Source: Nitrospirales bacterium | GTDB lineage: Bacteria > Nitrospirota > Nitrospiria > Nitrospirales > UBA8639 | Assembly: GCA_021604105.1 (NCBI GenBank) | Contig: BQIW01000022.1 | Span: 1 to 53,602, forward strand | DNA: 53,602 bases | Reading direction: 5' to 3' | Part shown: one piece after another, positions 21,712-24,721 of the stretch | Numbering within the stretch: position 1 is the stretch's first letter | Layout: every line of letters begins with the position of its first letter | Made by a program: the position numbers and the translations under genes | Notes under the pieces: generated by a model | Database searches by the model: none | What the model was told of the DNA's origin: nothing | The model's input: only the letters and a program-made list of their open reading frames with translations

Positions 21712-21748
21712 GTATCTGATTCGATACCACGTGTATCGTCATTGATAC
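21712..21748. promoter_or_regulatory. Twin GTATC-N6-GATAC palindromes, 21 bp apart
   Basis: GTATCTGATTCGATAC (21712-21727) and GTATCGTCATTGATAC (21733-21748) share identical arms and are offset by exactly 21 bases, two helical turns. A further half-site, GATACGTATG, sits at about 21938. The nearest gene is the hemopexin-cytochrome gene starting 218 bases downstream. They look like tandem operators for a dimeric regulator that I cannot name. Confidence 0.55.
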
Positions 21749-21966
21749 GCGCAACGCATGTGGAATTGAGAGCAGCAGTATCAGCAAGGATGTGAAGTCT
21801 AGTGCCAGTAGGAGCTATTAATCCGTTCCCGAAAATGTCTCTTTCCCACCGTTTATGAGTAGGAATGTGTCTTGCTTATACATCCGAACGACATCGAGTA
21901 TGGCTCGAACTGAGGAACGTAGTGGATGTACGCAATTGATACGTATGATGAGAAAGGGATCACGCT

Positions 21967-23700
21967 ATGAGAATGTCACGTGAAATTTTCCTGTCGACAC
22001 TCTGCGGAATATTCATCGCAGTGAGCTTCTGTGGGACAGTGGACGTTTGGGCTCAGTTGACCGGTTCAGGAAAGCTGGTGCCGGTGGTATGGAATAACGG
22101 CAAGGTCTATTTCTTCCAGGGAAATGAGTATGCCCGATACGATATCGCCCAGGATAGGGCGGACAGTGACGATGGGGTAGGCAACCCCTACCCTCGCCCT
22201 ATCCGGAACATCTGGCCTGGACTCTTTCAGTCGAACATGGACGCGGCAGTCTTCTGGCCTGCGCCTCCTCCGGGTGGTACAGAAAACAAGACGGTCGCCT
22301 ATTTCTTCAAAGGCCATCAGTTCATGAGATATGACGTTGAGGCTGATCGGGCTGATGCGGCAGATGGTGCCGGCCGGGCTTACCCACAGCCGATCTCGTT
22401 GAAGTGGCCTGGGATCTGGACAGATCGGGTGGATGCCGTTGTGATTTGGCCTGTCCCGAGAAACGGCAGGACCGTCGCGTACTTTTTCCGGGATGATCAG
22501 TACATCCGCTTTGACGTGAGGAGGCATCGGGCTGACCCTGGCTACCCGAAACCCATTGCGGGCAATTGGCCAAATTTCAAGTTTCCAGGTGGAATCGACG
22601 GTGCGGTGGCCTGGCCGACGAGGATTGAGGGAAAGTCGGTTGTCTATTTCTTTAAAGGCAATCAGTATATGCGGTATGACGTTGTGGCTGATCGTGCCGA
22701 CGATCAAACCGGGGGAGGGCTCGGCTATCCTGCGCCTGTTGCCGGGAATTGGCCCGGGCTTCTCCTAACCTCACCGGGCGGGACGGATGCCCTTGCAGCC
22801 TTTGCACAGGAGTGCGATCAGGCCATCGGCGCGTCTGTTCCCGATTTCGATGTCGATAGCCCGTTGGGGACAACGGTTCCGACCGATCATCTCACTCCGG
22901 CTAGCGCGACCTATCCGGACGGCATCTGTGATCGTCCGAATGTGCTCAATGGAAAATGCGATCGTGGCAGCCGTTTTCGGGTACTGGTCAATACGCCAGA
23001 CGCATACGTAGTGGCGCATGCCCGAAAGATGGGCCTCCCCCAAGGGCAGTATGGCGACGTGGCAATCATCCAGCACAATACAGTCAATGGCAAAACGTGT
23101 TTCTACCAGGGAGCACTGGAAGACTTTCACTTGAGCCATGATGGTAAGGTCAAGGCACCTTCCAAGGGGGTGGGCAATCCACCTTTCTGGATGACACCGT
23201 CACAAATTGTCAACAGCGAATTCCCCTGCGTCAGTTGCCATGACAATGGGCCAATCATCCGATCACCGTATCTCGCCCAGATATCCGGCCCCAACCAGTT
23301 GCCCGGTGCGGGTGATGTCACCTTCAACAGCGACCCCGAGCCCTATTCCTTTGTCGGCGCTGATTTCGCCTCATGGAAAGCTTATAAGGTCGAGGTCCGG
23401 GACAACCTATGCAACAACTGTCATCGCATGGGGGTCAACAACGTGAGTAACACCGGCAACGTCGGTAACAATGGCACGGCCCTCGATCTAGGCATCAAGG
23501 CCACGGCCCATTCACAGAAGAGTAAGCACCCCCACTCAGTCACATCGCCGATATGGATGACGCCCGGGCAGATCACCTTCGACCAGGCGACGGCTGATGC
23601 TGCACTTGCAATCAAGCAATGCGCCGAGCAGTTCCGTGCAGGAATGCCATTCCTGCCCAATTCGCCAAGTTGTAAAATTACGCAATTTACTACGCCGTAG
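21967..23700 (+). CDS. Exported four-repeat hemopexin propeller fused to a di-haem cytochrome c module
   Basis: The 577-residue protein begins with a signal peptide (residues 1-29, cleavage after VDVWA). Four hemopexin-like repeats follow (about 37-85, 92-150, 154-201, 209-264), each with the pattern YFFKGxQYMRYD and a closing WPG or WPN, as in a four-bladed propeller. After a linker with several Cys (283, 321, 331, 378) two haem c motifs appear, CVSCH at 421-425 and CNNCH at 482-486. Each is paired with a WMTPxQI segment (408-414 and 530-536). Hemopexin repeats mediate ligand or protein binding, and CxxCH motifs attach haem covalently in the periplasm. The combined protein is likely a periplasmic or surface electron-transfer or haem-handling protein. 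AAGGGATCACGCT supports the start; a second ATG lies two codons on. Confidence 0.88.
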   Translation: MRMSREIFLSTLCGIFIAVSFCGTVDVWAQLTGSGKLVPVVWNNGKVYFFQGNEYARYDIAQDRADSDDGVGNPYPRPIRNIWPGLFQSNMDAAVFWPAPPPGGTENKTVAYFFKGHQFMRYDVEADRADAADGAGRAYPQPISLKWPGIWTDRVDAVVIWPVPRNGRTVAYFFRDDQYIRFDVRRHRADPGYPKPIAGNWPNFKFPGGIDGAVAWPTRIEGKSVVYFFKGNQYMRYDVVADRADDQTGGGLGYPAPVAGNWPGLLLTSPGGTDALAAFAQECDQAIGASVPDFDVDSPLGTTVPTDHLTPASATYPDGICDRPNVLNGKCDRGSRFRVLVNTPDAYVVAHARKMGLPQGQYGDVAIIQHNTVNGKTCFYQGALEDFHLSHDGKVKAPSKGVGNPPFWMTPSQIVNSEFPCVSCHDNGPIIRSPYLAQISGPNQLPGAGDVTFNSDPEPYSFVGADFASWKAYKVEVRDNLCNNCHRMGVNNVSNTGNVGNNGTALDLGIKATAHSQKSKHPHSVTSPIWMTPGQITFDQATADAALAIKQCAEQFRAGMPFLPNSPSCKITQFTTP

Positions 23701-23975
23701 AGATCATATCGTTGACGATTGAAAGGAGGACAAAAGGAATATCGCAGGGACGGTAAGAATAATTCTTGTCTGTTCTGTTCAGAATCGTAAGAGACAGCAT
23801 TCGTTCTACTTCTTGGGCGGGCCGTTAACCCCCTAGACACAATGCGGTTATGGCCTACGATCATCTCCTTTTTCTTTTCCACGTATGATGTGGTCTCGGT
23901 GCTCACACTCCCACTGGCAACAGGACCTGCTTTATGACGATTTATTGGGGGACCGGACGAGTGCCGTCCGAGCTA
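23701..23975. other. Spacer with a strong orphan SD and an mtgA fragment
   Basis: The cytochrome gene is followed 20 bases later by GAAAGGAGGACAAAAGG with no ATG at a useful distance. At 23867-23901 lies a 35-base sequence matching the 3' end of mtgA. No gene is seen. Confidence 0.5.
23850..23906 (-). pseudogene. Fragment matching the 3' end of mtgA
   Basis: In the minus-strand frame this stretch reads TETTSYVEKKKEMIVGHN, against PTETTAYVEKKKELILRR at the C-terminus of the full mtgA gene 1 kb away. At the DNA level 32 of 35 bases match between 23867-23901 and 24884-24918. It is a direct-orientation remnant on the far side of the mntA-hepT pair and has no start codon of its own. Confidence 0.7.
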
Positions 23976-24320
23976 TCAGCTTAGATCTACCGAAGTGACG
24001 CGTTCCAGTTCTGCGATTAGCGGTGGAAGGTCTTCTTGCGCGGTTTTCCAGAGAATATCCAGGTCGATGTCGAAATAAGCATGAACCAACCGGTGGCGCA
24101 TGCCGACCATGTCGTCCCATGGTATTCCGCAGGTTTGATCTCGAGTGTCCGTTGTCACTTGGTAGGCCGCCTCCCCAATAATCTCAATAGCTTTGACCAT
24201 AGCCAACACCAATTGACGATCACTGTTTAAGTCAAAGCGGGTCCGACCACGCACAAATTCAACGGCTTCGCGGGCGGCATCCAACATATGTCGGAACCGG
24301 ATGAGGTCATCCTCCCTCAT
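23976..24320 (-). CDS. hepT: HepT-like HEPN ribonuclease toxin
   Basis: The 114-residue protein is a full-length HEPN-domain toxin of the DUF86/HepT family. It has the RX4HXY motif (RHRLVHAYF) and the conserved [11 protein letters not shown] helix. In the family HepT cleaves RNA and is neutralised when the MNT antitoxin adds AMP units to the motif Tyr. Its start overlaps the end of mntA by 14 bases, so translation is coupled. The paralogous copy at 6571-6915 has the same length but a nonsense codon at residue 17, so only this copy is expected to work. Confidence 0.92.
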
Positions 24321-24612
24321 ATTGGACCTCTGCTTCTTCCAGGATTCGCTGACGGAAATACCGGCTCAAGTCCTGAGGCGTGCGAAGATCAACCTTCCGA
24401 CCTCCCAGCAGCACTGAAAGCTCTCGTTCCATACGCGCGATCCCGAAGAGGCCAGGGACCTGGTCGGGTTCAAACTCGACCAGCAAATCAATGTCGCTGT
24501 CGGGACGAAAATCAGCACGGAGCGCCGACCCGAAAACCGCCAACCGCTGGATACTATGCTCACGGCAAAATGCAGCTATGGCGTCTTTAGGTATTGAAAT
24601 TTCAGAATTCAT
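24307..24612 (-). CDS. mntA: MntA-like nucleotidyltransferase antitoxin
   Basis: This 101-residue MNT-family nucleotidyltransferase carries the active-site motif [20 protein letters not shown] with the two metal-binding Asp residues. The substrate region [11 protein letters not shown] follows. It is thought to AMPylate HepT and so act as antitoxin. The ATG at 24612 follows GGAGGTAGAGGA, a strong ribosome-binding site; an upstream in-frame start would add 28 unrelated residues. It forms an operon with hepT. Confidence 0.92.
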
Positions 24613-24721
24613 TCCTCTACCTCCATAACTATCCAGCTTTCGATTTCCCGATTCGTCAACGCACTTGAACGCGATGCCGGAGCTTAGGTGGACCATCCTT
24701 CACATGCGAAATAGGAAAGCC

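Follow-up and report, generated by a model that had tools for sequence, protein, structure and literature searches.

A hemopexin propeller joined to a putative di-haem electron carrier in two genera of Nitrospirales

We describe here a gene in a 53.6-kb stretch of Nitrospirales DNA (the window) whose product joins a four-bladed hemopexin propeller to a C-terminal half with two CxxCH motifs. The product is tentatively read as an exported two-haem electron carrier that would be docked by its propeller, expressed conditionally and work together with a pair of ~520-aa proteins, although we hold this reading at somewhat less than an even chance. If it is correct, the protein combines a propeller famous from animals with a haem electron carrier. 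In addition, the analysis exposes a putative di-haem family that is not listed in Pfam or NCBIfam and accompanies molybdenum hydroxylases in other phyla, and the function can be approached both through a precise signature of regulation and through the two unknown proteins that co-occur. Nitrospirales include important nitrifiers, and their surface redox proteins are poorly known. The features discussed below are collected in Table 1.

Table 1. Position and basis of the features of the hemopexin / di-haem gene, its upstream region, its partner pair and its relatives in Nitrospira (positions refer to the window unless a locus is given)
Feature	Position	Strand	Basis or remark
Hemopexin / di-haem cytochrome gene	21967..23700	+	577 aa; ORF bounds exact
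Signal peptide, residues 1-29	21967..22053	+	judged by eye; fastest-diverging part of the protein
Four hemopexin repeats / four-bladed propeller, residues 38-266	22078..22764	+	Pfam PF00045, AF2, Foldseek
Di-haem module, residues 274-577	22786..23697	+	relatives in Burkholderia, Salipiger, Rhizobium and two further Nitrospira contexts
First haem-attachment motif CVSCH, residues 421-425	23227..23241	+	sequence, alignment with relatives
Second haem-attachment motif CNNCH, residues 482-486	23410..23424	+	sequence, alignment with relatives
His370, candidate distal haem ligand (putative role)	23074..23076	+	invariant in module alignment; absent in remote G359 relative
Met531 in second WMTP, candidate distal haem ligand (putative role)	23557..23559	+	recurs in relatives, manual reading
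Tandem palindrome GTATC-N6-GATAC, twice, 21 bp apart	21712..21748	.	all orthologues with upstream region
Sigma-54-type -24/-12 element AGGAATGTGTCTTGCT (GG-N10-GC)	21861..21876	+	conserved in ten orthologues
Partner pair of the window's genome, two tandem ~520-aa genes	G000:C57:4815-8054 (L096)		unlinked to the hemopexin / di-haem gene
Di-haem plus tectonin-like protein, Nitrospira G230	L042:8492-10081	-	61% identical di-haem module
Remote di-haem relative, 688 aa, Nitrospira G359	L069:733-2796	-	extra C-terminal region of unknown kind

Architecture of the protein

An earlier note on this DNA had described an exported protein in which a signal peptide and hemopexin repeats are fused to two CxxCH motifs, and had proposed a Pfam search and a predicted four-blade propeller as checks. 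This description was borne out. A Sec-type signal peptide could be read by eye at the N-terminus (MRMSREIFLSTLCGIFIAVSFCGTVDVWA followed by QL), which supports export of the fusion protein. The Pfam search of the protein matched PF00045 over four stretches (89.4 bits, E = 1.4e-25), and in the genome search each of the four repeats was above the gathering cut-off of this family. The AlphaFold (AF2) model contained the expected propeller, with pLDDT mostly 60-88, and Foldseek matched it to the hemopexin domains of vitronectin and MMP proteins (E = 3e-12), the best folds being vitronectin 7rj9 (target TM 0.82) and MMP-14 3c7x.

By contrast with the propeller, the C-terminal half had no match over the curated cut-off in Pfam or NCBIfam, cytochrome families included; judged from its sequence, it is a di-haem family of its own that lacks a model in either collection. 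Every orthologue and every relative of this half has both CxxCH motifs, and thus their presence is not due to chance. An alignment with rows from Nitrospirales, Burkholderia, Salipiger and Rhizobium showed six non-haem cysteines, His370 and both CxxCH motifs to be invariant. On manual reading, the relatives also have a Met past the second CxxCH, in the form of IWM, HWMP, HAMP or HPWM; the alignment program does not put it in one column. The earlier note had further taken a WMTPxQI stretch for a repeated neighbour of the haem sites. The literal stretches are real, but the first lies 12 residues ahead of the first CxxCH and the second 45 residues past the second CxxCH, and in relatives the first reads WISP, WWKP, WEAP or WNTP while of the second only the Met recurs. 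A repeated haem-site unit was therefore rejected, since the positions differ and the first stretch is not conserved. The haem domain had a pLDDT of about 30 in AlphaFold, modelled with and without the propeller, and a search for a solved structural relative of this domain found none. As in c-type cytochromes, the CxxCH motifs (two) are conserved and the protein carries an export signal by eye, and the module is considered a putative c-type haem electron carrier.

Distribution, conservation and gene neighbourhood

Full-length orthologues (76-94% identical) were found in two Nitrospirales genera, to which matches were confined among 296 genomes of the phylum. The gene was present in 8 of 21 genomes of the window's genus. 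In the second genus, some relative of the haem module occurred in 8 of 79 genomes: five had the intact hemopexin form, G338 had a copy interrupted by an apparent IS30-type transposase (by eye), G230 had a tectonin-like form and G359 a remote one. Wherever dS was estimable, dN/dS was about 0.07-0.18 in the propeller and the haem half alike, indicating purifying selection. Outside Nitrospirota, the search covered plasmids, viral contigs and one close-relative scan, and thus other fusions may exist. A literature query for a hemopexin-cytochrome fusion in Nitrospira returned only an unrelated review, which does not by itself prove absence. Viral origin was rejected because viral contigs had no relative of the di-haem module and just a weak PHROG match to the hemopexin region, and membership in a defence system was rejected as no credible PADLOC match was obtained.

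In the window's genus, the gene is located between a helicase and a transglycosylase. These flanking genes are syntenic in the genus but unrelated, and a local operon was therefore rejected; the two genera have no conserved gene neighbour in common. It should be noted that a HepT/MNT-like toxin-antitoxin pair (by eye; window 23976-24696, minus strand) lies between the hemopexin / di-haem gene and the transglycosylase, and was also observed in L025 and not in the other syntenic loci examined. Moreover, the start of an ORF on the minus strand (window 23421-23906) is similar to the C-terminus of that transglycosylase (TTSYVEKKKEMIV versus TTAYVEKKKELIL) and is perhaps a remnant duplication.

Relatives of the di-haem module

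By using tblastn in plasmids, free-standing relatives of the module were identified in Burkholderia, Salipiger and Rhizobium (E = 1e-14 to 3e-10; 26-31% identity by tblastn, and about 25-30% across the di-haem module). Three neighbourhoods were examined, and in each of them the relative was directly 3' of MoCoBD_1/2 and Fer2/Fer2_2 genes; neighbours were taken from annotation for Burkholderia pyrrocinia and Salipiger, and for Rhizobium from ORFs, with the Mo subunit recognised by Pfam. The relatives are thus the third gene, right after the [2Fe-2S] gene, of a xanthine-oxidase-family molybdenum hydroxylase operon. Such a gene order is that of periplasmic molybdenum hydroxylases which pass electrons out via cytochrome c. 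Judging by operon position, the free-standing relatives most likely receive their electrons from the [2Fe-2S] subunit. A gene of this kind adjacent to MoCoBD and Fer2 genes was found in Burkholderia, Salipiger and Rhizobium, and not in Nitrospirales.

A different context was observed in G230, whose haem module is N-terminal and precedes five tectonin-like repeats that have one cysteine pair each. These repeats reached 22 bits with Pfam Tectonin, under its cut-off of 30, and similar ones also occur in proteins of Cupriavidus and Azospirillum. The finding of the same haem module with tectonin-like repeats suggested that the module is the constant core, to which the propeller is attached as a docking part that can be exchanged. 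The role of docking module that the earlier note had given to the propeller thus gains indirect support, in that one relative has tectonin-like repeats instead, at its other end; this swap of propeller type between relatives also makes the docking idea directly testable. A Nostoc plasmid protein was considered as a second fusion and rejected, as it combines hemopexin with an unrelated tail.

Upstream signature and partner pair

The tandem palindrome was present upstream of every orthologue with upstream sequence, with a spacing of 21 bp (22 bp in two genomes) and at about 250 bp from the ATG in most of them (366-380 bp in G035 and G230). It occurs as a single copy in the window, and 2 Mb of simulated sequence gave 0 chance matches per Mb at ≤2 mismatches. 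All 10 hemopexin-form orthologues compared have a GG-N10-GC element (consensus RGGAATNNGTNTTGCT) between the palindrome and the ATG, at -101 to -107 relative to the latter; the element was not found upstream of the G230 gene, though the tandem palindrome is there. In 317 kb of loci, the GG-N10-GC pattern occurred only before the hemopexin / di-haem gene or its partner pair. A slightly looser pattern detected the promoter of the pair and one other, weaker site in a 1.2-Mb sample of G019, in which the palindrome had one marginal match only. A GG-N10-GC element combined with a conserved upstream palindrome is the sequence arrangement expected under sigma-54 control, and spacing and position appear to match those of a sigma-54 promoter served by an activator further upstream; the palindrome is a probable site for such an activator (enhancer-binding protein).

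In G035, another tandem palindrome of this type was observed upstream of a TIR / nSTAND1 / FGE-sulfatase protein (L034:12490-15350, plus strand), and a palindrome pair was observed in G011 (L036:852-888). The latter genome also encodes a ~788-aa protein (L036:3451-5814, plus strand) whose hemopexin repeats flank an apparent metalloprotease site (FSHETGHIFGAPDEY, by eye).

The partner pair came into view in the second genus, as two neighbouring ~520-aa genes transcribed divergently from the hemopexin / di-haem gene. The pair is not linked to that gene in the window's genus, where the same GGGAATAAGTYTTGCT element precedes it along with a tandem palindrome in degraded form; this combination was found before the unlinked pair in four genomes. 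The first gene of the pair occurred in all 13 hemopexin-haem genomes versus 2 of 65 others (G009 and G013, fragmented assemblies; Fisher p = 5e-13, kinship among genomes ignored). Since this co-occurrence is confined to two genera, few independent events are behind it. The same gene was absent from G230, G359 and G338. No recognised domain was found in either protein and, by eye, neither a signal peptide nor another export signal; the two have weak mutual similarity and a common C-terminal PK(S/C)PDP tail. On the basis of the shared upstream elements, the pair is apparently co-regulated with the hemopexin / di-haem gene. Its own sigma-54-type promoter and near-constant co-occurrence with an unlinked pair suggest that the gene and the pair form a small, undescribed, conditionally expressed redox system.

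Proposed function and alternatives

How such a carrier might have arisen and work can be outlined as follows. The di-haem module may have been recruited from the cytochrome family of molybdenum hydroxylase operons. In Nitrospirales it is fused to a hemopexin propeller (one genome has tectonin-like repeats in its place) and would function without the hydroxylase. Instead of docking to the enzyme, the carrier would be held outside the cytoplasm by its propeller, on a partner that may be a glycan or a protein. Transcription would be conditional and depend on RNA polymerase with sigma-54 and on an activator bound to the tandem palindrome. The co-occurring pair may supply a substrate, a structure or an export step.

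The first alternative is that the protein mainly serves adhesion or the matrix, with the propeller and the pair building a surface structure in which the haem module is structural or electron-conducting. The exchange of propeller types (hemopexin, tectonin-like) would agree with such a role, and the single-gene unit, long upstream region and sigma-54 site resemble those of exopolysaccharide-linked PEP-CTERM genes, but the palindrome differs from their TTTACA motif (PMC1569441). In addition, no PEP-CTERM or anchor was seen, the pair has no export signal by eye, and conserved haem motifs together with six non-haem cysteines favour redox work. Thus, we consider a mainly structural role somewhat unlikely. 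An extended form of the electron-carrier reading is unlikely as well: a dedicated three-gene sigma-54 regulon of nitrifying-type Nitrospirales, in which an exported cytochrome that is aimed by an exchangeable lectin-like propeller and two proteins of an undescribed family make up a conditional redox system at or beyond the cell surface. If true, it might serve, for example, electron exchange with the matrix, a mineral or another cell.

It is improbable that the protein is a propeller-tethered di-haem peroxidase of the CcpA/MauG type or another catalytic di-haem enzyme. Two c-type haem motifs do occur in one exported domain, but they are 61 residues apart, no Pfam or NCBIfam match to such families was found, and the relatives sit in a dehydrogenase operon. 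Still less probable is a bacterial analogue of serum hemopexin, in which the propeller would scavenge haem or metal and the cytochrome module would reduce the catch or hand it on. Serum hemopexin has two propellers and holds haem between them by His ligands. The hemopexin fold and the CxxCH sites beside it would be in line with such a scavenger, but the protein has a single propeller with two His, of which 117 is Asn in most orthologues and 187 alone is conserved. Haem capture by the propeller, which the earlier note had allowed for, is therefore unlikely; moreover, no transport gene lies alongside, and the tectonin swap is ill-suited to haem capture. The least probable idea is, finally, that the protein has kept its link to a molybdenum hydroxylase, with the genes of the enzyme lying at another locus; the free-standing relatives do serve such an enzyme by position. 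A single MoCoBD_1 gene is present in G019, at a distance of about 1 Mb from the hemopexin / di-haem gene, but none was found in the other carriers tested or in the 96%-complete genome of the window, for which this idea is largely refuted, although the unassembled 4% could hide one.

Comparison with known systems

Sigma-54-controlled PEP-CTERM genes also stand as units of a single gene; they have a -24/-12 element, a site for an activator and a long upstream region (PMC1569441). Their activator motif differs from the palindrome described here, for which reason their regulator PrsR was rejected as the activator, and their tail was not seen on the hemopexin / di-haem protein. With other PF00045 proteins (vitronectin, MMP, Streptomyces, Nostoc), the likeness consists of four repeats over the cut-off and the propeller fold. 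The closest propeller sequences in the plasmid collection were from Streptomyces (43-46% identical); however, all of these proteins have other domains attached to the repeats and not c-type haem modules.

In cytochrome-linked molybdenum hydroxylases such as NicAB and AldFGH, c-type haem outside the cytoplasm accepts the electrons of a molybdenum/[2Fe-2S] enzyme; these systems are likened to the present protein by electron route alone, not by cytochrome sequence. The di-haem proteins of Burkholderia, Salipiger and Rhizobium have both CxxCH motifs and six other cysteines in common with it, whereas they have no propeller and belong to a hydroxylase operon, which the Nitrospirales gene does not. 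The G230 variant shares the di-haem module and the upstream tandem palindrome and has no ~520-aa pair, and it carries five tectonin-like repeats at its C-terminus in contrast with the N-terminal hemopexin propeller of the protein described here.
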